Assembly: GCF_010915705.1 (NCBI RefSeq)
Contig: NZ_JAAIKE010000001.1
Coordinates: 124,001-188,000 of the forward strand
Origin: Pseudotabrizicola algicola
Lineage (GTDB): Bacteria; Pseudomonadota; Alphaproteobacteria; Rhodobacterales; Rhodobacteraceae
DNA length: 64,000 nt
Reading direction: 5' to 3'
Made by a program: the position numbers and the translations under genes. A model generated the notes under the pieces. It had not been told where the DNA came from, did no database searches, and saw nothing but the letters and a program-made list of their open reading frames with translations. Positions within the stretch are counted from its first letter, which is position 1. Every line of letters starts with the position of its first letter. This document shows positions 45,340 through 57,366 of the stretch, piece after piece.

Positions 45340-47310
45340 ATGATCGTCGAGTTTGGTCATTTTGCCTTGGTTCTGGCGTTGGCGGTTGCCCTGGTGCAGA
45401 CCGTGGTGCCGATGTGGGGAGCCTACCGCCGCGATCCCGCCCTGATGGCGGTGGCGGAGCCTGCGGCAATGATCCAGTTCGTTCTTGTCCTGGCAAGCTT
45501 TGCGGCGCTGACCTATGCCTTTGTGATGTCGGACTTTTCGCTGAGTCTGGTGGTGCAGAATTCGCACACTCTCAAGCCCATGCTCTACAAGGTGTCGGGT
45601 GTCTGGGGCAACCATGAGGGGTCTTTGCTGCTCTGGGTGGTGATCCTTGCGCTGTTCGGGGCCTGCGCGGCGTGGTTTGGCGGCAATCTGCCGCCGACGC
45701 TGCGCGCGCGGGTGATTGCGGTGCAGGGGTCCATCGGCGTGGCTTTTCTTCTGTTCATGCTGTTTACCTCGAATCCGTTCCTGCGGCTGGCGGTGCCGCC
45801 CTTGGACGGGATGGACCTGAACCCGCTGCTGCAAGACCCCGGCTTGGCCTTTCACCCGCCGTTCCTCTATCTGGGCTATGTCGGGCTGAGCATGGCGTTT
45901 TCCTTTGCGGTCGCCGCGCTGATCGAGGGGCGGGTGGATGCCGCATGGGGTCGCTGGGTGCGTCCGTGGACGCTGGCGGCATGGGTGTTCCTGACCATCG
46001 GCATCGCGCTAGGGTCCTGGTGGGCCTATTACGAGCTTGGCTGGGGCGGGTTCTGGTTCTGGGACCCGGTGGAGAACGCGTCCTTCATGCCGTGGCTGCT
46101 GGCGGCGGCGCTGCTGCATTCCGCCATCGTGGTCGAAAAGCGCGAGAGCCTGAAGGCGTGGACGATCCTGCTGGCGATCATGGCTTTTGGCTTTTCGCTG
46201 ATCGGCACCTTCATCGTGCGGTCAGGGGTGATCACATCTGTGCATTCCTTCGCCAATGACCCCGAGCGCGGGGTGTTCATTCTGATGATCCTCGGCGTGT
46301 TCATGGGCGGCGCGCTGACGCTGTTCGCCTTCCGTGCGGGGGCGATGGAGGCCAAGGGCATCTTTGCGATGGTCAGCCGCGAGTCGGCGCTGGTGGCGAA
46401 CAACCTGCTGCTCTCGGTGGCGGCCTTTGTGGTGTTCATCGGCACCATCTGGCCGCTGCTCGCCGAGCTGTTCTTTGACCGCAAGCTGAGCGTGGGCGAG
46501 CCGTTCTTCAACGCGGCGTTTTCGCCCTTTGCGGTGGCGCTGGCGCTGATCCTGCCGGTGGGTGCGATGATGCCGTGGAAGCGAGGCGAGATCCTGCGCG
46601 CCTTTCGCCCCCTGATGCCGGTGGCAGTTCTGGCCTTTGCGCTGGCCGCCCTTGTCTGGTCGATGCAGACAGGACGCACGGCGCTCGGGCCGGTGGGCGT
46701 GGGCCTCGGGATCTGGGTGGTGCTGGGCGCGGTGGTCGATCTGTGGAGCCGCACGGGGCGCGGGCCGCTGGCGGGACGTCTGGCCCGTCTCGGGCGCCTG
46801 CCGCGCGCCGACTGGGGCAAGGGGACAGCGCATATCGGCCTTGGCATCACGGTGTTTGCGGTCTGCGCCATGCTGGCGTGGAAGACCGAGGATATCCGCA
46901 TCGTGCAAGAGGGTGGCAGCTATCCCCTGGGGCCTTACGAGGTGACACTCGATTCCGTCGATGAGGTGCAGGGGCCGAATTACATCAGCACCATGGCCAC
47001 GATGACGGTGCGGCGTGACGGCGCCGTGGTGGCCCGGCTGACCCCCGAGAAGCGCGTCTATCCGGTGCAGAACATGCCCACCACAGAGGCGGCGATCGAT
47101 TACGGTTTCCTGCGCGACATCTATCTGGTGATTGGCGATCCGCAGGCCAATGGCGGCTATGCGGTGCGCTCCTATATCGAGCCCTTTGCCAATTGGCTTT
47201 GGGCGGGCTGCCTGATCATGTCCTTGGGCGGGCTGCTGAGCCTGACCGACCGGCGCTACCGCGTGGCGGCGGGGGCGAGCCGCCGCACCGCTGCGGTTCC
47301 GGCGGAGTGA
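45340..47310 (+). CDS. ccmF: Cytochrome c haem lyase subunit CcmF
   Basis: CcmF is the large membrane subunit that attaches haem to apocytochrome c in system I. The 656-residue protein has about 15 membrane helices, the Trp-rich WWD-like segment WGGFWFWDPVENASFMPW (about 232-249) and conserved periplasmic histidines. GGGAGAG precedes the ATG. ccmH follows 4 bases later. Cytochrome c maturation is central to photosynthetic electron flow (cytochromes c2 and bc1). Confidence 0.96.
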   Translation: MIVEFGHFALVLALAVALVQTVVPMWGAYRRDPALMAVAEPAAMIQFVLVLASFAALTYAFVMSDFSLSLVVQNSHTLKPMLYKVSGVWGNHEGSLLLWVVILALFGACAAWFGGNLPPTLRARVIAVQGSIGVAFLLFMLFTSNPFLRLAVPPLDGMDLNPLLQDPGLAFHPPFLYLGYVGLSMAFSFAVAALIEGRVDAAWGRWVRPWTLAAWVFLTIGIALGSWWAYYELGWGGFWFWDPVENASFMPWLLAAALLHSAIVVEKRESLKAWTILLAIMAFGFSLIGTFIVRSGVITSVHSFANDPERGVFILMILGVFMGGALTLFAFRAGAMEAKGIFAMVSRESALVANNLLLSVAAFVVFIGTIWPLLAELFFDRKLSVGEPFFNAAFSPFAVALALILPVGAMMPWKRGEILRAFRPLMPVAVLAFALAALVWSMQTGRTALGPVGVGLGIWVVLGAVVDLWSRTGRGPLAGRLARLGRLPRADWGKGTAHIGLGITVFAVCAMLAWKTEDIRIVQEGGSYPLGPYEVTLDSVDEVQGPNYISTMATMTVRRDGAVVARLTPEKRVYPVQNMPTTEAAIDYGFLRDIYLVIGDPQANGGYAVRSYIEPFANWLWAGCLIMSLGGLLSLTDRRYRVAAGASRRTAAVPAE

Positions 47311-47314
47311 GGGG

Positions 47315-47776
47315 ATGAAACACCTCCTCCTTGCCGCGCTCATGGCCTTTGTGCCGCTGTCCCCTGTCTTTGCGGTGCAGCCCGACGAGGTGCTGGCCGA
47401 CCCGGCGCTGGAGGCGCGGGCGCGCGCCATCAGCCGCGATCTGCGCTGCCCTGTCTGTCAGGGGGAATCGATTGACGATTCCAATGCCCCGATCAGCCGC
47501 GACCTGCGGCTTGTGGTGCGCGAGCGGATCATGGCCGGAGACAGCGACGCCGAGGTGATCGATTTCGTCGTCAGCCGTTACGGCGAATTCGTGCTGTTCA
47601 ACCCGCGCGCCGAAGGGGCCAACCTGATCCTTTGGCTGGCAGGGCCGGCGGTTCTGCTGCTGGGGGGCATCGGTGCCTTTGGCTATATCCGGCGGCGCGG
47701 GCAGGCCGGCGGCGCGGCGGCGGTGCCGCTCAGCCCCGAAGAACAGGCGCGACTGCGCGATCTTATGGGCAAGTGA
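47315..47776 (+). CDS. ccmH: Cytochrome c maturation protein CcmH (CcmH/Ccl2 thioredoxin-like)
   Basis: The 153-residue protein has a cleavable signal peptide (about 1-20), the redox motif LRCPVCQG (Cys45, Cys48) that reduces apocytochrome c thiols, and a C-terminal membrane helix (LILWLAGPAVLLLGGIGAFG). It partners CcmF and is translated directly after it. This is the short CcmH form, without the TPR domain of E. coli CcmH. Confidence 0.95.
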   Translation: MKHLLLAALMAFVPLSPVFAVQPDEVLADPALEARARAISRDLRCPVCQGESIDDSNAPISRDLRLVVRERIMAGDSDAEVIDFVVSRYGEFVLFNPRAEGANLILWLAGPAVLLLGGIGAFGYIRRRGQAGGAAAVPLSPEEQARLRDLMGK

Positions 47777-47844
47777 CGCGGCGTTTGGCCTTTTCTTGCC
47801 ATCCGGTGCGGATAGTCTGACGCGCAGGCGTTGAGGGGGACCCG

Positions 47845-48621
47845 ATGGACTATCAGACGATCAGCGTGACCGAAGCCGGTGGGGTGGCAACACTGACCCT
47901 CGACCGGCCCGAGGTGATGAATGCACTTTCCAGCCAGATGCGTGCCGAACTGCTTGACGCGCTGCGCCATGCAGGGCGATCGGCCCGCGTGATCGTGCTG
48001 ACGGGGGCAGGGCGCGCCTTTTGCTCGGGCCAGGATCTGGGCGACCGCGCCAAGATTGCCGAGATCGACTTGGAGCGCACGCTGCGCGACGAGTATGAGC
48101 CGCTCTTGCGCGCGATCATGGATTGCCCGGTGCCAACCATCGCGGCGGTGAACGGGGCGGCGGCAGGGGCGGGGGCCAATCTGGCGCTGGCCTGCGATGT
48201 GGTGATCGCGGCGCAAAGCGCCAGCTTCATCCAGGCCTTCACCCGCATCGGGCTGATGCCGGATGCGGGCGGCACCTATTGGCTGCCGCGTCAGGTCGGT
48301 TTTGCCCGCGCGATGGGGGCGATGCTGTTTGCCGACAAGATCACGGCGGCGCAGGCGGCGGACTGGGGGATGATCTGGGAGGCGGTGCCGGACGAGGCCT
48401 TCGCCGACCATATCGCGGCCCGCGCCGGGGCCTTGGCCAAGGGGCCGACGGTGGCCTATCGCGGGGTCAAGCAGGCGCTGCGGCAAAGCTATGCCAATGA
48501 TCTGGAGGCGCAACTGGCGCTAGAGGCGCGCCTGCAGGGGGCCTGCGGGCGGACGCGCGATTTCATGGAGGGCGTGGTGGCCTTCCTCGACAAGCGCCCG
48601 GCCGCGTTCGAAGGACGCTGA
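47845..48621 (+). CDS. Enoyl-CoA hydratase/isomerase family protein (PaaG-like)
   Basis: A 258-residue crotonase-fold protein. The oxyanion-hole regions GRAFCSGQDLGDR (about 55-67) and NGAAAGAGANLALACD are present, and FTRIGLMPDAGGTYWLPR resembles PaaG (epoxyphenylacetyl-CoA isomerase), which has Asp at the catalytic position. No other phenylacetate gene is near, so a general fatty-acid role is equally possible. It is 68 bases after ccmH; a terminator hairpin follows. Confidence 0.88.
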   Translation: MDYQTISVTEAGGVATLTLDRPEVMNALSSQMRAELLDALRHAGRSARVIVLTGAGRAFCSGQDLGDRAKIAEIDLERTLRDEYEPLLRAIMDCPVPTIAAVNGAAAGAGANLALACDVVIAAQSASFIQAFTRIGLMPDAGGTYWLPRQVGFARAMGAMLFADKITAAQAADWGMIWEAVPDEAFADHIAARAGALAKGPTVAYRGVKQALRQSYANDLEAQLALEARLQGACGRTRDFMEGVVAFLDKRPAAFEGR

Positions 48622-48626
48622 AAGGC

Positions 48627-48656
48627 AGCCCCCGGCGCGGCGGACGCGCGGGGGCT
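48627..48656. terminator. Hairpin terminator between convergent genes
   Basis: A stem of about 12 bp with one bulged G (AGCCCCCGGCGCG against CGCGCGGGGGCT) and a short loop, lying between the ends of the crotonase gene and the minus-strand ilv operon. No strong T-run; likely shared by both directions. Confidence 0.65.
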
Positions 48657-48665
48657 TCCTTCGGG

Positions 48666-49055
48666 TCAGCCGCCGTTGCCCTGCGGCTGCGGTGCGGGGC
48701 AGGGTTGCAGCAGACGGATGCCGCGTTCGGTCATGATGACCACGACCTCGGACGCTTCCTCGCCCTCCACCCCCAGCAGGGGCGCGCGGGCGGCCAGAAC
48801 CCGCCCAACGGGTTCGGACATGCCCTCTTCGGTCATGGTGCCTTCAAACAGCAGCACATTCAGGCCGCGCACGCTCTGCGGATCGTCAAGGCGGATCGCC
48901 CCACCTTCGCCGCCCGGAAAGTAGCTTTCGCGGTCATAGCGTGCTTCGGCATATGCGCCGCATTGCTCGGGCTTGCCGTAATCGGCATAGGGCTGCGCGA
49001 CAAGCGGCGTGGCGCAGAGGGCGGCGGCGGCGGCCGAGAGGACCAGCGCCCGCAT
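48666..49055 (-). CDS. Small secreted protein of unknown function, coupled to ilvN
   Basis: I do not recognise this 129-residue protein. It has a clear signal peptide (MRALVLSAAAAALCATPLVA, cleavage near residue 21) and an acidic mature part with two cysteines (EQCGAYAEARYD and LLQPCPAP). Its ATG shares one base with the ilvN stop (TGATG), and a GTG one codon upstream is also possible. That coupling places it in the ilvB-ilvN operon, though a periplasmic protein has no obvious part in branched-chain amino acid synthesis. Confidence 0.7.
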   Translation of the reverse strand: MRALVLSAAAAALCATPLVAQPYADYGKPEQCGAYAEARYDRESYFPGGEGGAIRLDDPQSVRGLNVLLFEGTMTEEGMSEPVGRVLAARAPLLGVEGEEASEVVVIMTERGIRLLQPCPAPQPQGNGG

Positions 49056-49615
49056 CACGCGCCCCGCGCCAGCGCGGCGACGCCGGTGCGCGCAATCTCG
49101 CGCAGGCCCAAGGGGCGCATCAATTCGGCAAAGCTGTCGATCTTCTCGGGCGTGCCGGTCATCTCGAACACAAAGGATTCCAGCGTGCTGTCCACCACAT
49201 GCGCGCGGAAGATCTCGGCCAGCCGCAGCGCCTCGATCCGGTGTTCGCCCTTGCCCGCCACCTTGAACAGCGCCAGTTCGCGCTGCACCGAAGGGCCTTC
49301 CTCGGTCAGGTCATGCACCTCGTGCACCGGCACGATGCGCGCCAGTTGCGCCTTGATCTGCGCGATGATCTGCGGCGTGCCGCGCGTCACGATGGTGATG
49401 CGGCTCAGATGGCCGGTGTGATCGGTCTCGGCGACGGTCAGGCTTTCGATGTTATAGCCGCGTCCCGAGAACAGCCCGATCACCCGCGCCAGAACCCCCG
49501 GCTCGTTGTCGACGATCACGGCCAGCGTGTGGCTCTCGATCACCTCGGCATAGGGATCGCGCAGGTCATAGGCGGAATGGCTGGTCGAGCCGGTTTTGAT
49601 ATTGAGCGGCGACAT
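49055..49615 (-). CDS. ilvN: Acetolactate synthase small (regulatory) subunit
   Basis: The 186-residue subunit starts with an ACT domain (HTLAVIVDNEPGVLARVIGL, GYNIESLTVAETD) that binds valine for feedback control and activates the large subunit, followed by the C-terminal regulatory domain. The length is that of IlvH/IlvN of alphaproteobacteria. It follows ilvB across a gap that holds a dispersed repeat. Confidence 0.95.
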   Translation of the reverse strand: MSPLNIKTGSTSHSAYDLRDPYAEVIESHTLAVIVDNEPGVLARVIGLFSGRGYNIESLTVAETDHTGHLSRITIVTRGTPQIIAQIKAQLARIVPVHEVHDLTEEGPSVQRELALFKVAGKGEHRIEALRLAEIFRAHVVDSTLESFVFEMTGTPEKIDSFAELMRPLGLREIARTGVAALARGA

Positions 49616-49629
49616 GGGCCTGCCCTTTC

Positions 49630-49674
49630 ATCTGTTCATAAATATCCTGGGGGTCCGGGGGCAAAGCCCCCGGG
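49630..49674. repeat. Dispersed intergenic repeat, copy 2, between ilvB and ilvN
   Basis: Contains ATAAATATCCTGGGGG and a hairpin CCGGGGGC-AAA-GCCCCCGG (49655-49673), the same layout as the copies at 20094, 56368 and 61708. It lies in the 87-bp gap between two co-transcribed subunit genes, opposite in orientation to the operon. Confidence 0.65.
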
Positions 49675-49702
49675 AGTTCAGCAAAAGATCACGCGGCAGG
49701 CT

Positions 49703-51457
49703 TCACACCAACACCGCGCCCTTCGCCCCGATCACGCCTTGCGTATCGGCATCGCCGAGCAGCATCTCGTTGTGCGGCTTGCCTGACGGGATCATCGGGA
49801 AGCAGTTCTCGTGCTTTTCAACCAGGCAATCAAAGATCACCGGACCGTCATAGCGGATCATCTCCATGATCGCATCGTCGAGGTCTTTTGGATCATCGAC
49901 CTTGATGCCCTTGCAGCCGAAGGCCTCGGCCAGTTTCACGAAATCGGGCAGGGATTCCGACCAGCTTTGGCTATACCGCTCGCCATGCAGCAATTCCTGC
50001 CACTGGCGCACCATGCCGAGGCGTTCGTTGTTCAGGATGAACTGCTTCACCGGCGCGCGGAACTGCATGGCGGTGCCCATTTCCTGCATGTTCATCAGCC
50101 AGCTTGCCTCGCCCGCCACGTTGATCACCAGCGCGTCGGGATGGGCGATCTGCACGCCGATGGAGGCGGGCAGGCCATAGCCCATGGTGCCGAGCCCGCC
50201 CGAGGTCATCCAGCGGTTCGGGTCCTCGAACCCGAGGAACTGCGCCGCCCACATCTGGTGCTGGCCCACTTCGGTGGTGATGTAGCGGTCCATGCCCTTG
50301 GTCAGCGCCTCGAGCCGTTCCAGCGCGTATTGCGGTTTGATGATGCTGGTCGAGTTCTTGTAGGTCAGGCATTTCACCGCCCGCCATTCGTTGATCTGCG
50401 TCCACCATTTGGCCAGACCGGCCTTGTTCACCTTGCGCCCGCGCGATTTCCAGATGCGCAGCAGGTCTTCCAGCACATGGCCCACATCGCCGAGGATCGG
50501 CACGTCGACACGCACCACCTTGTTGATGGAGGAGGCGTCGATGTCGATATGCGCCTTGCGCGAATTGGGGCTGAAATCCTTGATGCGGCCGGTGATGCGG
50601 TCGTCAAAGCGGGCGCCGATGTTGATCATCAGATCGCAGCCGTGCATGGCAAGGTTGGCTTCATAGAGCCCGTGCATCCCCAGCATGCCCAGCCAGTTCT
50701 TTCCGCTTGCCGGATAGGCGCCGAGCCCCATCAGGGTGGAGGTGACGGGAAAGCCGGTGGCCTCGGCCAGTTCGCGCAGGAGCTGGCTGGCGGCGGGGCC
50801 GGAGTTGATGACGCCGCCCCCCGTATAGAGGATCGGGCGTTCCGCGGTCTCGATCATCTCGACCAGACGGGTGATCTGGTCGATGTCGCCCTTCAGCTTG
50901 GGCTGGTAATGGCTGGTCTTGATCTTTTCCTTCACCGTGTAATCGGCGGTGGCGAATTGCACGTCCTTGGGAATGTCGATCAGCACCGGGCCGGGGCGGC
51001 CCGAGCGCGCGACGTGGAAGGCCTGATGGATAGTGGCCGAGAGGTTGGCGGTGTCTTTCACCAGCCAGTTCATCTTGGTGCAGGGGCGGGTGATGCCCAC
51101 CGTGTCGGCCTCCTGGAAGCCGTCGGTGCCGATCATGAAGGTGGGCACCTGACCCGTCAGCACCACAAGCGGGATGGAATCCATCAGCGCGTCGACCAGG
51201 CCGGTCACGGCGTTGGTGGCACCGGGGCCGGAGGTCACCAGCGCCACGCCCACCTTGCCGGTGGACCGCGCATAGCCTTCGGCCATGTGGATGGCGCCCT
51301 GTTCGTGGCGGACAAGGATGTGGCGGATGTCGTTTTGCTGAAAGATCTCGTCGTAGATCGGCAGGACCGCGCCGCCGGGATAGCCAAAGACCACTTCAAC
51401 GCCTTGATCCTTCAGCGCCTGCACCACCATCCGGGCACCCGTCATCGCCTGTGTCAT
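49703..51457 (-). CDS. ilvB: Acetolactate synthase large subunit
   Basis: The 584-residue catalytic subunit makes acetolactate or acetohydroxybutyrate for valine, leucine and isoleucine. It shows GYPGGAVLPIYDEI and HEQGAIHMAEGYAR at the N-terminal thiamine domain, the FAD region in the middle, and the C-terminal thiamine-diphosphate site VAGEASWLMNMQEM followed by NNERLGMVRQWQ. Expression is probably set by the attenuator and leader peptide upstream. Confidence 0.96.
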   Translation of the reverse strand: MTQAMTGARMVVQALKDQGVEVVFGYPGGAVLPIYDEIFQQNDIRHILVRHEQGAIHMAEGYARSTGKVGVALVTSGPGATNAVTGLVDALMDSIPLVVLTGQVPTFMIGTDGFQEADTVGITRPCTKMNWLVKDTANLSATIHQAFHVARSGRPGPVLIDIPKDVQFATADYTVKEKIKTSHYQPKLKGDIDQITRLVEMIETAERPILYTGGGVINSGPAASQLLRELAEATGFPVTSTLMGLGAYPASGKNWLGMLGMHGLYEANLAMHGCDLMINIGARFDDRITGRIKDFSPNSRKAHIDIDASSINKVVRVDVPILGDVGHVLEDLLRIWKSRGRKVNKAGLAKWWTQINEWRAVKCLTYKNSTSIIKPQYALERLEALTKGMDRYITTEVGQHQMWAAQFLGFEDPNRWMTSGGLGTMGYGLPASIGVQIAHPDALVINVAGEASWLMNMQEMGTAMQFRAPVKQFILNNERLGMVRQWQELLHGERYSQSWSESLPDFVKLAEAFGCKGIKVDDPKDLDDAIMEMIRYDGPVIFDCLVEKHENCFPMIPSGKPHNEMLLGDADTQGVIGAKGAVLV

Positions 51458-51506
51458 CGTCCGTTTCTCCGCCTGTGCCAGTCTTGCCTAATCTGTCTGT
51501 CGCAAC

Positions 51507-51575
51507 AAAAAGCCCCCGGGGTTTCCGGGGGCGCATGGGAACCTGTTATGGTCAACCGTTACCGGCCCATGCGCC
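51507..51575 (-). promoter_or_regulatory. ilvBN transcription attenuator (terminator/antiterminator)
   Basis: On the minus strand, 50 bases before ilvB, GCCCCCGG/CCGGGGGC... forms an 8-bp terminator stem (51512-51532) followed by TTTTT (51511-51507). The 5' flank of that stem, CCCATGCGCC (51539-51530), is perfectly complementary to GGCGCATGGG (51575-51566) inside the leader peptide, giving a competing 10-bp antiterminator. A ribosome completing the leader would cover the upstream arm and let the terminator form; one stalled at Leu/Ile/Val codons would leave it free. Confidence 0.85.
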
Positions 51576-51606
51576 AAAAACCCCCAAGTACGAGAATGTG
51601 CAGCAT
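51559..51606 (-). CDS. ilv leader peptide (15 residues)
   Basis: ATG at 51606, preceded 5 bases upstream by GGAGGGGG, encodes MLHILVLGGFWRMGR and stops at TAA (51561-51559). Residues 2-7 are Leu-His-Ile-Leu-Val-Leu, i.e. five of six are branched-chain residues, the end products of the ilvBN pathway. The last codons overlap the upstream arm of the antiterminator. This is the classical layout of an amino-acid-sensing attenuator. Confidence 0.85.
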   Translation of the reverse strand: MLHILVLGGFWRMGR

Positions 51607-51635
51607 CGCCGCCCCCTCCAAACCTTCCGCTGGGC

Positions 51636-51664
51636 AAACTATGGCGGCATCTGGGGGGCGTCAA
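51636..51664 (-). promoter_or_regulatory. Predicted ilv promoter
   Basis: Minus-strand TTGACG (51664-51659) and, after 17 bases, TAGTTT (51641-51636); CATAGT at 15-base spacing is an alternative -10. Transcription from near 51630 would include the leader peptide ribosome site. Pattern-based. Confidence 0.45.
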
Positions 51665-51794
51665 CCGCAAAAAACTGAATAATCTGTCGCAAGGGGTGGC
51701 TATTTTTGATTTTTTCTTACGTTTGCGTGATAGTCGCGGCAACTTATGAAAAAGAACGCTGCGTTTTGGCCTCTGCCGCGCAAAGGTGAGTCGC

Positions 51795-51819
51795 AAGGAA
51801 AGCCCCGCCGGTGCGGGGC
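51795..51819 (-). terminator. Intrinsic terminator of the cation antiporter gene
   Basis: On the minus strand GCCCCGC-ACCG-GCGGGGC (7-bp stem) is followed by TTTCCTT. It lies 43 bases after the antiporter stop and separates it from the ilv promoter. Confidence 0.75.
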
Positions 51820-51861
51820 ACGGGCGGGGCGAGGGGGGCTTGGGTGGCGCTGCGCGTTCGG

Positions 51862-52776
51862 TCAGGCCATGATGAGGGCGACATAGCCTGCGTAGATCGC
51901 GAGGAGCGCCACACCGGCAAGGCGGGGGATGCCCTTGAGCAGCACCGCGAAAAGCACCAGCAGCAGGGCGGTTCCCGCCACCCAGGGCATGTCAGCGCTG
52001 GCAAAGCGCGGATCGGCGGGGATGGGCAGGATCAGCGCGGTGATGCCGAGGATCGAGAAGATGTTGAAGATGTTCGAGCCGATCACGTTGCCGACCGCGA
52101 TCTCGGTCTGTTTGCGGAAGGCGGCGATCACGCTTGTCGCCAGTTCGGGCAGGCTGGTGCCGACTGCGACGACCGTCAGGCCGATCACCGCCTCGGAGAC
52201 GCCGAAGGTGCGGGCGATCTCGGTGGCGCTGTCGACCAGAAGCCGCGCGCCGATCACCAGAACGATAAGCCCGCCGATCGTCTGCGCGATGGAGATGGGC
52301 ATCGAGGACGGCGGTTCGGCATCAAGATCGGGTTCCTCCTTGCCGAGGAAAAAGGCCATGCCCATGAACACGGCCAGACCGGCCAGCAGGATCACCCCGT
52401 CAAGGCGCGAGATTGACCCGTCGAGCAGCATGATCCAGAGCGCGGCGGTGGCGACCACCATCACCCCCAGATCGCGCCAGACCTTGCGCAAGGGGATCAT
52501 CAGCGCGGCGATGGCTGCCGAGGTGCCGAGGATCAAGAGGATATTGGCGACGTTCGATCCCAGCACATTGCCGATGGCGATGGCGGGCTGGCCGGCCATT
52601 GCGGCCTGTATGGACACCAGAAGCTCGGGCGCCGAGGTGCCGAAGCCCACGATGGTCAGGCCGATGACCATGGGGGAAAGGTTGAAGTGACGCGCAATGT
52701 TCGATGCGCCGCGCACCAGATATTCGCCGCCGAGGAACAGGGCGACGAGCCCGATGCAAAACAGAAGATAGGTCAA
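51862..52776 (-). CDS. Calcium/sodium (CaCA-family) antiporter, YrbG-like
   Basis: A membrane protein with about ten helices in two inverted halves. Both halves carry the ion-binding alpha-repeat motifs: GFGTSAPELLVSI followed by GNVLGSNVANILLILG, and AVGTSLPELATSV followed by GNVIGSNIFNIFSILG. This is diagnostic for CaCA exchangers. No ATG fits the start; the TTG at 52776 has GGGGA 7 bases upstream and begins just before the first helix (304 residues). A longer open frame upstream reads as non-membrane sequence. The transported ion is not certain. Confidence 0.92.
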   Translation of the reverse strand: MTYLLFCIGLVALFLGGEYLVRGASNIARHFNLSPMVIGLTIVGFGTSAPELLVSIQAAMAGQPAIAIGNVLGSNVANILLILGTSAAIAALMIPLRKVWRDLGVMVVATAALWIMLLDGSISRLDGVILLAGLAVFMGMAFFLGKEEPDLDAEPPSSMPISIAQTIGGLIVLVIGARLLVDSATEIARTFGVSEAVIGLTVVAVGTSLPELATSVIAAFRKQTEIAVGNVIGSNIFNIFSILGITALILPIPADPRFASADMPWVAGTALLLVLFAVLLKGIPRLAGVALLAIYAGYVALIMA

Positions 52777-52963
52777 GGTTATGTCCCCGTTGGAGGCTGT
52801 CAGCCGCAATGTGATCCTGGCATGACTTTGGTGCGCCTGCCCGAAATGCAAGGGGCGGGCGGGGAAACATGCGCGCGAAATCCAGATTTAACGGGCGGTG
52901 TGGCCGGAAGGGCAAAGGCAGGAGAGGCGCCCTCGCGGGCGGGGGGCGGCGCTTGCGGCCCGG

Positions 52964-53614
52964 TCAGCGGCCATGCCCGGTGCCTTGCAGCACGCCATGT
53001 TCCATCGCATAGCGCGTCAGCCCCGCGGTGGAGGCGATGCCGAGCTTGCGCTTTATGTTCTTGCGATGCGTCTCCACGGTGCGCACCGAGATGTCGAGGG
53101 TCAGCGCGACCTCTTTGTTGGACTGGCCGCGCGCGAGTTCGAGGAGGATGGTCTGCTCGCGGCTGGTCAGCGGCTCGCGCGCGCCGTCCGGCACGGGTTT
53201 GAGGCTTTTGCTGGCCCCCGTGCACAGATAGCGGCGCCCCTGCATCACGGTATCTATCGCGTGCTTCACCTCTTCGGTCGGCACGTCCTTGAGCAGATAG
53301 CCCATCGCGCCGTGGCTGAGGGCGGTGGAGATGTATTCGCGGCTGTCATGCATCGACAGGATCAGGATGCGGGTGTCGGGACGGCTTTCGAGGATGATCT
53401 CTGTCGCGGTCAGCCCGCCGACCTGCGGCATGTTGAGATCGAGAAGGATGACATCGGGGTCAAGCTCGGCCACGCGGTCGATGGCCTGACGCCCGTTGCA
53501 CAGCGTGCCGACGACAAGGATGTCATCATAGGTTTCCAGAATAGCACGTATGCCTGCGGCCACCATCGGGTGATCGTCCACGATCAGGACGCGGGTCTGG
53601 CTGGGTTCGGTCAT
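52964..53614 (-). CDS. NarL/LuxR-type response regulator
   Basis: A 216-residue regulator: receiver domain (residues 1-125) with acidic pair Asp13-Asp14 in IVDDHP, phospho-acceptor Asp59 in VILLDLNMP and a conserved Lys in YLLKDV; then a LuxR-type helix-turn-helix (LTSREQTILLELARGQSNKE, onward to VRTVETHRKNIKRKLG). The start overlaps the kinase stop by ATGA, so the pair is one two-component system. Divergence from the TRAP operon suggests that operon is its target. Confidence 0.93.
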   Translation of the reverse strand: MTEPSQTRVLIVDDHPMVAAGIRAILETYDDILVVGTLCNGRQAIDRVAELDPDVILLDLNMPQVGGLTATEIILESRPDTRILILSMHDSREYISTALSHGAMGYLLKDVPTEEVKHAIDTVMQGRRYLCTGASKSLKPVPDGAREPLTSREQTILLELARGQSNKEVALTLDISVRTVETHRKNIKRKLGIASTAGLTRYAMEHGVLQGTGHGR

Positions 53615-55011
53615 CCTTGCGCCTCTGCGGTTTCGGTGGGGGGGAGCATGTGGGAGAGCGGCACCTGCGCTTCGATCAGGGTGCCGGTGCGGGTTGACAG
53701 GATGCGCAGCGTGCCGTCAAGCCGCTCCATCCGTTCGGCCATGTTGCGCAGCCCCAGCCCCTCGCGGCGGGTGGCGGGCATGCCGTGGCCGTTGTCCTCG
53801 ATGCGCACGACAGCGCCGGTCTTGGTGCCGCGCACCAGCATCTTGACGCGGGTTGCACCCGAGTGGCGCTCGATATTGGTCAGCGCCTCTTGGGCGATGC
53901 GGTAGAGGGCGATCTTGGCCTCGGAATCAAGGCGGTTGCGGAAGGGGTTGGTGACATAATCCACCGTGATGCCCGTGCGCCCGCCAAATTCTTCGGCGAG
54001 CGATTGCAGGGCGGGGCCAAGGCCCAGATCGTCGAGCACGCCGGGGCGCAGGTCGCGGCTGATCCGGCGCACCTCCTGGATGGCCCCGTTCAGGTTGTCG
54101 ATGCCCTGGTCGATGCTTTCCCCCGCGCGGGCATCGCCGATCGAGAGGCGGCGGCGCGCGAGTTCTAGGGTGTAGCGCACGCCGACCAGAATCTGGCTGA
54201 TGCTGTCATGCAGTTCGCGGGCAACGCGGCCGCGTTCTTCCTCTTGCGTGTCGAAGATGCGCTGGGTGAGCGCCTTGAGCTTCTGGTCGGCCAGACGCCG
54301 CTCGCGCAGGTTCAGGAACAGACCCGAGAGGAACACGGCCAGAACGGCGGCGGCGGTGATGGCGCCGATGTAGACGAAGGTGCGGGAGACGCGGGCCTCG
54401 GTTTCGGCGCGGGCGGCGGCAACAGAAGTGAGCACATCGTCGATGAACACGCCGGTGCCGATGGCCCAGCGCCAGTCTTGCAGGCCGATCACATAGGTGA
54501 TCATGCGCCCTTCGGTGCCGGTCGACGGTTTTGGCCAGACATAGCTGTGAAATCCGGCGCCCTGACGCGCGAGTTCGATCAGGCGGTCGACCACGGGGGT
54601 GCCTTCCGAATCGTGCAGGCCCGCCCAGCCCCGTTCGATCAGCCATGTCTGGCGGGGGCTGACGATGTTGCGTCCGTCATAATCGTAGACGAAGAAGAAC
54701 CCTTCGGTGCCATAGGTCATCGCCGCAAGGATCTGGGCGACGCGGGTCTTGGCGTCTTCGTCATCGGGCAGCGCATTGCCGTAGATCGGGCCAAAGGCGG
54801 TGCGGGCGATCGAGAGGTAATTCTTGAGTTCGGCGCGTTTGGTGGCGACAAGCTGAGCCTCGAGCATGGCGATCTCGCGCTCGGACATCTCGCGTGCTTC
54901 GCGCGATACCAGAAACGACAGCATGGCCATGGCCAGCACCAGCGGAAGCGTGGCCAGCAGAAAGACCTTTTGCCCATAGCTGAGTCTGAATCTGCGGGCG
55001 GGGTCGTTCAT
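53611..55011 (-). CDS. Sensor histidine kinase with single Cache domain (HisKA_3)
   Basis: From ATG 55011 the 466-residue kinase has a first membrane helix (about 15-34), a periplasmic Cache domain (about 50-205; GTEGFFFVYDYDGRN and LQDWRWAIGTGVFIDDV are typical of single-Cache sensors of small carboxylates), a second helix (about 212-233), a coiled linker, the phosphorylation site RVARELHDS (His268) and a C-terminal ATPase domain (EDNGHGMP). It probably senses a ligand carried by the adjacent TRAP transporter. Confidence 0.92.
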   Translation of the reverse strand: MNDPARRFRLSYGQKVFLLATLPLVLAMAMLSFLVSREAREMSEREIAMLEAQLVATKRAELKNYLSIARTAFGPIYGNALPDDEDAKTRVAQILAAMTYGTEGFFFVYDYDGRNIVSPRQTWLIERGWAGLHDSEGTPVVDRLIELARQGAGFHSYVWPKPSTGTEGRMITYVIGLQDWRWAIGTGVFIDDVLTSVAAARAETEARVSRTFVYIGAITAAAVLAVFLSGLFLNLRERRLADQKLKALTQRIFDTQEEERGRVARELHDSISQILVGVRYTLELARRRLSIGDARAGESIDQGIDNLNGAIQEVRRISRDLRPGVLDDLGLGPALQSLAEEFGGRTGITVDYVTNPFRNRLDSEAKIALYRIAQEALTNIERHSGATRVKMLVRGTKTGAVVRIEDNGHGMPATRREGLGLRNMAERMERLDGTLRILSTRTGTLIEAQVPLSHMLPPTETAEAQG

Positions 55012-55159
55012 GCCGGTTCTCGCTTGCCTGCGGGCCAGAGTGCGGGCGGATCGCGCCGCGGTCAATCGCGGCGGTGCAGCACACGGGCCCGTGAGGTGAA
55101 AATTTTGCGGCTGACGCAGGGGCAAATGCGTATTTGTCGGTATTTTCGCGCTTTCGATG

Positions 55160-55173
55160 TCACGCTAACGTGA
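55160..55173. promoter_or_regulatory. Inverted repeat between the two-component system and TRAP operon
   Basis: TCACG-CTAA-CGTGA is a perfect 5-bp inverted repeat in the 220-bp region between the divergent kinase and binding-protein genes, 59 bases before the latter. It is a candidate site for the NarL-type regulator; unproven. Confidence 0.35.
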
Positions 55174-55231
55174 GCCCGTGAGGATGGGTGAGGCCATCCG
55201 AAGCCAATCAACCACTGGGAGGAGAGTGCCG

Positions 55232-56317
55232 ATGGATCGTCGTTCCTTTTTGACGAAAGCTGCGCTGGGGGGCGCGACTGCCGCTGCCGCGACCACGCTG
55301 GCCGCGCCGATGTATGCGCAGGGCAACCGCACGCTGACGCTGGTCACCACATGGGGTCGCGGATTGGCCGGGGTGCATGACAGCGCCCAGCGCTGCGCCG
55401 ACATGATCACCGCGCTGACCGACGGGCAGCTGACGGTGGACCTGAAGGCGGCGGGCGAACTGGTGGGCGCGTTCGAGGTGTTCGATGCCGTGACCTCGGG
55501 TCAGGCCGACATGTATCATGGCGCGGACTATTATTTCGTGGGCCAGCATCCGGCCTATGCATTCTTCACCGCCGTGCCTTTCGGCATGACCGCGCAGGAA
55601 CTGGCGAACTGGTATTACCACAATGGCGGCATGGAGCTGCATGACGAGCTGGGCCAGATCTTCGGCATCAAGTCCTTCCTTGCGGGCAATACGGGCGCGC
55701 AGGGGGGCGGCTGGTTCCGCAAGGAGATCAACGGTCCCGAGGATTTCCAGGGGCTGAAGTTCCGCATGCCAGGTCTGGGCGGGCTGGCGCTGGGCAAGAT
55801 GGGCGCGAGCGTGCAGAACATTCCGGGCTCGGAAGTCTATCAGGCGCTGTCCTCGGGGGCGATCGACGGCACCGAATGGATCGGGCCTTGGGCGGACGAG
55901 AAGCTGGGCCTGCAGGAGATCACCAAGATCTATTACCCCGCAGGCTTCCACGAACCGGGCGCGGGCCTGTCGCTGGCCACCAACCGCGATGTCTATGAGA
56001 GCCTGACGCCGACGCAGCAGAAGATCATCGAGATTGTCGCGGGCGACGGGCACCAGTGGAACCTGGCGCAGTTCCTGACGCAGAACGGCGCGGCGCTGGC
56101 CCGGTTGCAGGCAGCCGGCGTGCGCACGATGGAATTCCCCGACTCGGTCTGGGATGCCTTCGGTGCTGCCAGCCAGGCGGTGCATGACGAGAACATGGGC
56201 GACGAGATTTACAAGAAGGTCTACGACAGCGCGATGGCCTCGATGCGCGCGTCGTCGTCCTGGCTGAAGATCTCGGACGGGACCTATACCGCGCAGCGCG
56301 ACCGCGTGCTGGGTTGA
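55232..56317 (+). CDS. TRAP transporter substrate-binding protein (DctP family, 2-oxoacid/monocarboxylate type)
   Basis: The 361-residue periplasmic protein has a twin-arginine signal (MDRRSFLTKAALGG, cleavage after AAPMYAQ) and the DctP-fold blocks GAFEVFDAVTSGQADMYHGA, FRMPGLGGLALGKMGASVQN and GSEVYQALSSGAIDGTEWIGP, the last being the carboxylate-pinning region. The subgroup that includes R. sphaeroides TakP (2-oxoacids) and so-called mannitol/chloroaromatic proteins has these features. GGGAGGAGAG precedes the ATG. The membrane subunits follow. Confidence 0.92.
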   Translation: MDRRSFLTKAALGGATAAAATTLAAPMYAQGNRTLTLVTTWGRGLAGVHDSAQRCADMITALTDGQLTVDLKAAGELVGAFEVFDAVTSGQADMYHGADYYFVGQHPAYAFFTAVPFGMTAQELANWYYHNGGMELHDELGQIFGIKSFLAGNTGAQGGGWFRKEINGPEDFQGLKFRMPGLGGLALGKMGASVQNIPGSEVYQALSSGAIDGTEWIGPWADEKLGLQEITKIYYPAGFHEPGAGLSLATNRDVYESLTPTQQKIIEIVAGDGHQWNLAQFLTQNGAALARLQAAGVRTMEFPDSVWDAFGAASQAVHDENMGDEIYKKVYDSAMASMRASSSWLKISDGTYTAQRDRVLG

Positions 56318-56367
56318 GCGCGGGCGCTGGCGGGAGACATCCTGCCGGCGCTGTGCTTTGTGGCTGA

Positions 56368-56421
56368 CCCCGGGGGGATCCTCCCCCCGGACCCCTCTGG
56401 GATATTTTCAGACAGAAAATG
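56368..56421 (-). repeat. Dispersed intergenic repeat, copy 3 (reverse), within the TRAP operon
   Basis: In reverse orientation it begins ATTTTCTGTCTGAAAATATC, then CCAGAGGGGTCC, and ends in a hairpin CCGGGGGG-loop-CCCCCCGG (56370-56390). It fills the gap between the binding-protein and small-permease genes and reaches into the first ATG of the latter, arguing for a start further in. Confidence 0.65.
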
Positions 56422-56433
56422 AGGGGGGTGGAT

Positions 56434-57366
56434 GTGACGGGGGGCGACGTGCTGGACGCAATCGGTTGGGTGATCGGCAATATTGGCATGGCCTTTGTCA
56501 ACTTCGGGGTGGCGCTGGCCAATCCGGGGATGTGGCTGAACTGGTCGGACCGCGAGGCGCTGGCGCGGTTCATCTATTACGGGGCCTCGGTCGAGTTTTT
56601 CTTTGTGGTGTTCACCGCATTTCTGGTGCTGACCGTAATCGGTATGGCAGTGCGGCCGTTTTTGTGGGGCATGGTGCGCGGGCTGGAGGCGATGGCCAAC
56701 GGGATCGGGCGCTTTGTGGCATGGTTCGGGCTGCTTATGGTGCTCCAGCAGATCGTCATCATCTTCTTGCAGCGCATTTTCCGCGTGGCGGTGCTGGAGT
56801 TCGGGCCGTTCGCGCCTTTCGGCTATCCGCTGTTGCCCGGCCCGTCCTTCGCGCGCGATCTGTCGTGGTGGTCGGAAGAATTGAAGCTGTATAACGCGAT
56901 GATCGTCTGCCTGTGCGTGACCTATACCTTTGTGCAGGGTGGTCATGTGCGCGTCGATCTTTTCTATTCCAGTGTGCGCTTTCGCACCAAACGCCTGATC
57001 GATATGGCGGGCTGCCTGTTGTTCATGATGCCTGCGGCGGTGCTGACGTGGCTCTACTCGTGGTTTTTCATGTGGCGCTCGCTGGTCACGCCGAAGGTGT
57101 CGGCCAGTGACAAGCTGGACTCCTTGCTGGCCAAGGCGCGCATCTTCAAATGGAATGTCGAGACCATCGCGTTTTCACCAAACGGGTTCGACGCGTATTT
57201 CCTGTTCAAGCTGCTGATGATCGCCTTTTGCGCGCTGGTGTTCCTGCATGCCTGGGCCTTCTTGTGGCGATCTTGGCTCGAGTTCGTGGAAGGGCCTGCC
57301 GCAGAGGGGCGCTATCTGGACAGGGATGCGCCGGGCAGCAGCACTGACGATCTGCAAACGCGATAA
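56434..57366 (+). CDS. TRAP transporter small membrane subunit (DctQ family, large form)
   Basis: About 310 residues with four main membrane helices of the DctQ type (one in FVAWFGLLMVLQQIVIIFLQ; later MIVCLCVTYTFVQGGHVRVD is the conserved DctQ block) and extra hydrophobic segments at the N-terminus; typical DctQ proteins have 160-190 residues. GTG 56434 has GAGGGGGG just upstream; the ATG at 56419 lies in the repeat end and lacks a ribosome site, but is possible. It is followed after 15 bases by the large subunit. Confidence 0.85.
   Translation: MTGGDVLDAIGWVIGNIGMAFVNFGVALANPGMWLNWSDREALARFIYYGASVEFFFVVFTAFLVLTVIGMAVRPFLWGMVRGLEAMANGIGRFVAWFGLLMVLQQIVIIFLQRIFRVAVLEFGPFAPFGYPLLPGPSFARDLSWWSEELKLYNAMIVCLCVTYTFVQGGHVRVDLFYSSVRFRTKRLIDMAGCLLFMMPAAVLTWLYSWFFMWRSLVTPKVSASDKLDSLLAKARIFKWNVETIAFSPNGFDAYFLFKLLMIAFCALVFLHAWAFLWRSWLEFVEGPAAEGRYLDRDAPGSSTDDLQTR

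Follow-up and report, generated by a model that had tools for sequence, protein, structure and literature searches.

In the classical enteric attenuators (trp, his, leu, ilv) the control codons lie in a short leader, a terminator stands before the first gene, and a stalled ribosome frees an antiterminator that holds much of the terminator 5' arm. Leader control codons and a terminator before the first gene are likewise present upstream of ilvBN in the stretch of Pseudotabrizicola algicola DNA analysed here (64,000 nucleotides, hereafter the window). For the alpha-proteobacteria, an ilvB leader peptide is named as already described by Corbino et al. 2005 (PMC1273637), citing Vitreschak et al. 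2004; its placement upstream of ilvB, as mentioned in PMC1273637, is the same as in the window. In Caulobacter, an attenuator of ilvBN / ilvIH is reported to combine tandem Ile and Val codons, a terminator and ribosome pausing (Tarleton et al. 1994, as described in PMC4117421), and by this description it concerns the same operon and class as the window.

The initial annotation had placed a branched-chain amino acid attenuator upstream of ilvBN, an interpretation supported by our analysis: the downstream genes encode, according to NCBIfam equivalog models, the large and then the small subunit of acetolactate synthase, and the leader of the operon is very probably a ribosome-mediated transcription attenuator for branched-chain amino acids. 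Direct support comes from the anatomy, conservation, covariation, promoter sequence, codon bias and spacing; it is on these comparisons that the regulatory reading stands, the physical switch being a tentative part of it. When the minus strand was read directly from 51800 to 51350, all the parts lay where the annotation had put them, i.e. the ribosome site, the 15-codon frame, the segment GGCGCATGGG, its complement CCCATGCGCC and the terminator with TTTTT (Table 1). The five branched-chain residues claimed early in the leader MLHILVLGGFWRMGR correspond to CTG, ATT, CTC, GTA and CTT, five Leu/Ile/Val codons among codons 2-7, and the gap of 50 bases given between the terminator and ilvB was measured as 49 nt from the T run to the ilvB ATG (51457). 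The terminator (stem 51532-51525 / 51519-51512, TTTTT 51511-51507) reaches -19.5 kcal/mol folded alone. Moreover, the minus-strand RNA 51640-51494 folds at -68.2 kcal/mol, versus -54.96 +/- 3.89 for 200 shuffles (z = -3.4, 0/200 as good). The overlap that had been described between the two stems exists, but it amounts to just 3 nt (51532-51530), weaker than written. The gene upstream of the leader, on the same strand, encodes a Na/Ca exchanger and has its own terminator-like hairpin at 51819-51802.

Table 1. Coordinates of the ilvBN leader elements and of the genes that follow, in window positions.
Feature	Position	Strand	Details
Promoter-like site	51636..51664	minus	TTGACG 51664-51659, TAGTTT 51641-51636, 17 nt spacing
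Leader ribosome site GGAGGGGG	51612..51619	minus	direct reading in the window; 5 nt 5' of ATG
Leader peptide frame MLHILVLGGFWRMGR + TAA, 15 codons	51559..51606	minus	direct reading; ATG at 51606, TAA 51561-51559
P1 5' arm GGCGCATGGG	51566..51575	minus	overlies leader codons 11-14
P1 3' arm CCCATGCGCC	51530..51539	minus	perfect complement of GGCGCATGGG; final 3 nt (51532-51530) common to terminator stem
P2 hairpin CCG-GTAA-CGG	51556..51565	minus	stop TAA = final three bases of GNRA-type loop
P3 small hairpin, GACC with GGTT	51540..51553	minus	predicted from window fold alone
Intrinsic terminator GCCCCCGG-AAACC-CCGGGGGC then TTTTT	51507..51532	minus	direct reading and terminator scan
ilvB, biosynthetic acetolactate synthase large subunit, 584 aa	49703..51457	minus	NCBIfam NF006581 1134 bits (cut-off 974), TIGR00118 782 bits
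ilvN/ilvH, acetolactate synthase small subunit, 186 aa	49055..49615	minus	NCBIfam TIGR00119 176 bits (cut-off 57), ACT domain

IlvB was detected in all of the 149 genomes sampled from the family Rhodobacteraceae, giving 149 ilvB upstream regions (G017, whose ilvB match has no 5' end, was dropped and G024 gives two). A mechanical test was applied to these regions, requiring a strong terminator plus a frame of 10-20 codons with at least 4 Ile/Leu/Val in 6 codons. Since 129 of the 149 regions passed, against 0/149 reverse complements and 0/745 dinucleotide shuffles, the observation is more than chance, and the conservation of the leader codons in relatives, which the initial annotation had put forward as a check, is borne out; 102/149 passed a stricter leader test (at least 5 Ile/Leu/Val in 6 codons). 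Among the 20 regions that failed, some are variants which still have a leader (e.g. G012, G074, G124) and others are without any (e.g. G023, G033, G136). Genome G024 contains two ilvB genes (L095, L115), each with its own attenuator. Family leader statistics were computed on 136 leaders, five of 141 being skipped: 108 are 15 codons long and 96 include RMGR, the general form being MxxLVVIVGxxRMGR. A covariance model of the ilvB leaders (R1) gave matches in 141 of the 149 genomes sampled from the order, those listed all belonging to Rhodobacteraceae; at least three of these 141 are marginal and may be terminators (G418, G428, G431; E 2.6e-4 to 8.6e-4). In genus g24 (G023, G352, G373, G379, G413, G431) five of the six genomes had no R1 match and the sixth a marginal one, likely reflecting loss of the attenuator in this genus.

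For the analysis of the stems we used an alignment (A1) of 125 of the 136 leaders, 10 diverged leaders and one near-copy being left out. Stems P1 and P2 together show 93.1% of cells paired in the 125 aligned leaders, and 10 of their 13 pairs have changes on both sides, compared with 4-6 such pairs in slid controls; cells changed on both sides number 27, versus 3.2 in shuffles (0/500 as high) and 7-12 in slid controls, and none of 500 shuffles reached any of the five covariation measures. The terminator displays 98.7% of cells paired in the same leaders, with both-side changes in 4/7 pairs versus 0-2 in slid controls, so that the covariation of both stems in relatives, also proposed as a check by the annotation, was found. 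The pair that lies outermost in the window's P1 (columns 62 and 124) is missing in 55/125 aligned leaders. When all columns were scanned for covariation, the top pair was an extra terminator pair, and P2 and P1 pairs were within the top 40, beside many non-pairing columns.

P1 was also evaluated by exchanging partners between leaders, in 33 of the 35 non-core leaders including the 10 diverged ones absent from A1. With their own partners the P1 arms reach -23.3 kcal/mol versus -18.5 +/- 0.6 when swapped (0/500), the pairing being weak or misplaced in three of these leaders (G001, G061, G120); in several genera (e.g. G008, G054, G093, G122) the P1 sequence is wholly changed and the pairing kept. 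Identity of the P1 arms in the 125 aligned leaders, where the 10 diverged ones are omitted, is 96-97%, a level that exceeds the apparent needs of base pairing. At the P2 loop, one base plus the stop codon reads GTAA or GTGA, GNRA-like, in 90/106 core leaders, TAG as leader stop being rare (8/106).

Upstream of the leader, TTGAC is present in 105/106 core leaders; in 101 of these it lies 51-61 nt from the leader start (0.08 expected by chance per region). Within the -10 box, conservation of the T, A and T columns is 0.90, 0.91 and 0.86; the promoter scan of the window found no sigma-70-like site. Transcription would start near 51630. The annotation had named transcription of ilvB from downstream of 51507, or lack of conservation of the stems or leader codons, as findings against it; instead, leader codons, both stems and the upstream promoter sequence are kept across the family, and this promoter sequence, conserved upstream in 105/106 core leaders, speaks against a start downstream of the terminator.

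Five Ile/Leu/Val codons precede P1 in 68/106 core leaders and six to seven in 25 more, i.e. at least five in 93/106. Their choice is strongly biased: of 284 Val codons in core leaders 54% are GTA, versus 1.2% of 1307 in window genes, and of 152 Leu codons 34% are CTA, versus 0.4% of 1783, a comparison that sets mechanically chosen window genes of one genome against leaders from many genera. Rare codons and selective tRNA charging are discussed as causes of leader codon bias in PMC1183508. The Gly codon before P1 is GGA in 63 of the 98 counted versus 5.6% in window genes; leader codons 8-9 in relatives read GTAGGA before GCGCATGGG, placing AGGA about 9 nt upstream of an AUG in P1 that is in frame and could serve as an internal start.

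In 84/106 core leaders, P1 is preceded at a distance of 11 nt by the start of the last Ile/Leu/Val codon. If the ribosome is assumed to cover 13 nt, counted from the first A-site base, then P1 is entirely accessible while the ribosome stands on the earlier control codons and loses just its basal end once the last control codon is reached; at the stop, the 5' arm is covered. The distance from the leader stop to the terminator is 23-29 nt in 136/141 leaders. According to PMC4824070, hairpin formation requires that 10-15 nt of RNA, counted from the A site, be free, and termination in the system described there is maximal beyond 27 nt; the distance found here is near those above 27 nt that give full termination in that system.

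We propose that, once RNA polymerase has started near 51630, the 15-codon leader would be loaded with a ribosome. A shortage of charged Leu-, Ile- or Val-tRNA would make this ribosome halt at codons 2-7, short of codons 11-14, so that the P1 5' arm stays available; P1 could then fold as a three-way stem directly against the terminator and take its basal bases, and polymerase would read into ilvB. With plentiful amino acids the ribosome would instead reach the stop and cover the P1 5' arm, the terminator would form and transcription would end. We infer the stalling, the direction of the response and the way in which P1 disables the terminator.

This last step was explored by folding. The overlap between the P1 core and the terminator is exactly 2 nt in 105/106 core leaders (104/105 without the window), and it is 3 nt in the window when the tenth P1 pair is counted; in 10 of the 33 non-core leaders the two have no nucleotide in common, the best P1 stopping 0-3 nt short of the terminator. 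At equilibrium, with the 13 nt cover assumed, the family mean for the terminator basal pairs is 0.63-0.69 with the ribosome on the earlier control codons and 0.98 both on the last control codon, where the shared end of P1 is covered, and at the stop; the inner stem of the terminator stays at 0.90-1.00 across the family with the ribosome on control codons. Thus, with so small an overlap, folding alone predicts partial exclusion, which vanishes when the ribosome reaches the last control codon. For the window, the basal pairs are at 0.00 for codon 2, 0.05 for codon 4, 0.78-0.82 for codons 5-7 and 0.997 from codon 8 through the stop, the low values at codons 2 and 4 being due to a longer pairing of GGGGGTTTTT with the terminator loop. 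This extended antiterminator, striking in the window, was not above swapped partners in the 106 core leaders (p 0.54) and was rejected as window-specific. A 1:2 protector hairpin was not detected either by energy, leader and P1 5' arm pairing at -10.83 kcal/mol versus -10.85 when the leaders were shuffled (29/50 as good, 106 core leaders), or by covariation among the 40 top pairs of all column pairs.

The pairings had been called mutually exclusive in the initial annotation. P1 and the terminator do overlap in the window, and P1 is conserved and coevolving, yet the two share just 2-3 nt and the exclusion of the terminator is partial at equilibrium. Either the loss of these two to three basal pairs beside the U run may suffice to disable the terminator, or P1 may act as a bulky stem at the polymerase mouth, blocking closure of the hairpin.

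Outside the family, R1 was run on a class sample of 190 genomes, of which 17 matched (three Rhodobacteraceae and 14 others). In the 14 outside genomes the best four matches (43-80 bits) precede an MFS transporter and not ilvB; the other ten (25-33 bits) resemble ordinary terminators by eye. A candidate second copy in the window's own genome (G000:C1:387039, 27 bits) was rejected, as it resembles the ordinary kind of terminator that closes a gene. Two R1 matches were also obtained in eleven further genomes of the order sample; in the ten examined (G361 omitted), four second matches are pump leaders of Rhodobacteraceae (G448, G425, G357, G437; loci L277, L268, L269, L270), these genomes also carrying the usual leader before ilvB, and six resemble ordinary terminators.

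A second model (R2), built from 8 pump and 4 ilvB leaders, was searched against a class sample of 385 genomes at E 1e-4 and matched 16, five of them Rhodobacteraceae (G000, G170, G055 and G075, before ilvB, plus G337). In all of the 11 matched genomes outside the family, representing ten families, the module lies before an MFS transporter; seven of them were held out of the model (loci L375, L377-L382), among these held-out pump leaders that of G647, whose frame has no ATG and GTG starts only. TIGR00710 (Bcr/CflA efflux) was the best family for all of the 18 pump proteins studied (10 from R2 matches, six from Atu_C8 loci and two queries), 16 scoring above the cut-off of 200.9 and two just below (195.7, 199.9). 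The pump does not carry the module as a rule: among 52 loci of its relatives (two being the same gene), visual inspection identified the module in 8, and R2 at E 0.01 picked out those same 8, with L306 borderline; seven of the eight had been in the R2 alignment. The window genome has a 43% identical relative without the module. Repeated on 20 pump leaders, the partner exchange did not separate own from swapped partners (235/500 as good), because the arms are nearly identical in sequence; the P1 pairing of the pump leaders is conserved, without covariation support.

A search of window positions 46000-57000 against Rfam (E up to 1) gave one weak match, over the leader region, to RF02502 Atu_C8, typed as a Rhizobiales small RNA, with 22.8 bits versus a cut-off of 50, and the P. 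algicola genome had no Atu_C8 match at E 0.001. Among 36 genomes of one family seven matched Atu_C8, six above the cut-off (L234, L361-L365); these six have a Val/Ile-rich leader frame at the start and lie close upstream of a Bcr/CflA-type MFS gene, unlike the seventh, weak match. Atu_C8 resembles the ilvB leader in its GCGCATGGG / CCCATGCGC arms, in a Val-rich frame with RMG or RVG, and in the terminator; it differs from the window, which falls below the cut-off, in that the six strong matches precede a pump gene and have several nt between P1 and the terminator.

These likenesses suggest that the amino-acid attenuator and the pump switch share one origin, and that the Rfam small-RNA family could be re-read as a translated leader. 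We regard as evenly balanced the proposition that one module, inherited from a common ancestor, serves ilvBN in Rhodobacteraceae and, in ten or more further families and the four sampled Rhodobacteraceae genomes that have both leaders, Bcr/CflA-type MFS pumps; Atu_C8 would then be one of its branches and would function as a translated leader instead of, or in addition to, a free sRNA, and P1 would act by abutting the terminator and not by sequestering its arm. The signal sensed by the pump leaders may be branched-chain amino acids or general translation stress. The pump-linked branch was not found in the literature searched (open library), where CflA with leader peptide and attenuation gave no match; the papers matching CflA and leader peptide did not concern it by title or abstract start, and the name Atu_C8 was absent from the papers matched for Atu_C8, Agrobacterium or sRNA.

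Three other explanations of the ilvBN leader were weighed. A plain terminator with a chance small frame, in which the hairpin ends leaky upstream transcription and the frame is untranslated, would suit a compact genome with many terminators, and the weaker model matches do resemble ordinary gene ends; nevertheless, the leader, P1 and the spacing are conserved with 0/745 shuffles passing, and a conserved promoter sequence stands between the upstream gene and the leader, from which an unrelieved terminator would shut the operon off, so that we consider this explanation extremely improbable. It is only slightly less improbable that the leader senses slowed translation in general (e.g. by a ribosome-targeting drug) and not branched-chain amino acids. 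The place of the module before Bcr/CflA-type pump genes in the 11/11 R2-matched genomes outside the family, where an amino-acid signal is not obvious, would agree with such a role, as would two of the 20 counted pump leaders with just 2-3 Ile/Leu/Val codons; against it, before ilvB 68/106 core leaders have five such codons ahead of P1 and 25 have six to seven, with a strong bias to codons rare in window genes.

Somewhat more credible, and still unlikely, is that a protein binds the conserved P1 arms, or that the terminated leader is a trans-acting small RNA, attenuation being secondary. Arms 96-97% identical in the 125 aligned leaders, above what pairing seems to require, point in this direction, and in S. 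meliloti the RNA of the trp leader is a dual-function sRNA according to PMC10117765; however, the diverged genera exchange the P1 sequence and keep its pairing. An attenuator responding to branched-chain amino acids is the reading that we favor before ilvB.

Regarding ilvB in other families, four of 27 upstream regions gave a relaxed terminator-plus-leader call, one more region being too short. By eye, L337 (G285) and L350 (G218) are plausible among these calls; L342 looked plausible and failed the test. L350 and L337 have different Leu/Ile/Val leaders with terminators before ilvB, and from these unlike leaders it follows that ilvB attenuation may occur in unlike forms across the class.

Within the same order as the window, the uORFC-8-2 motif found upstream of cysS in Rhodobacterales is also a candidate for ribosome-mediated attenuation according to PMC8632094, where it is described with cysteine codons and a tRNA-synthetase gene, in both of which it differs from the ilvB leader. 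Compared with the classical four-segment attenuator, the window has no detected 1:2 protector hairpin and its P1 shares 2-3 nt with the terminator. The ilvBN element fits known biology, as a clean family-wide case with a very compact antiterminator whose effect is partly explained by folding energies; it joins the known class of attenuators, the unexpected features being the minimal overlap of its stems and a module shared with efflux genes.
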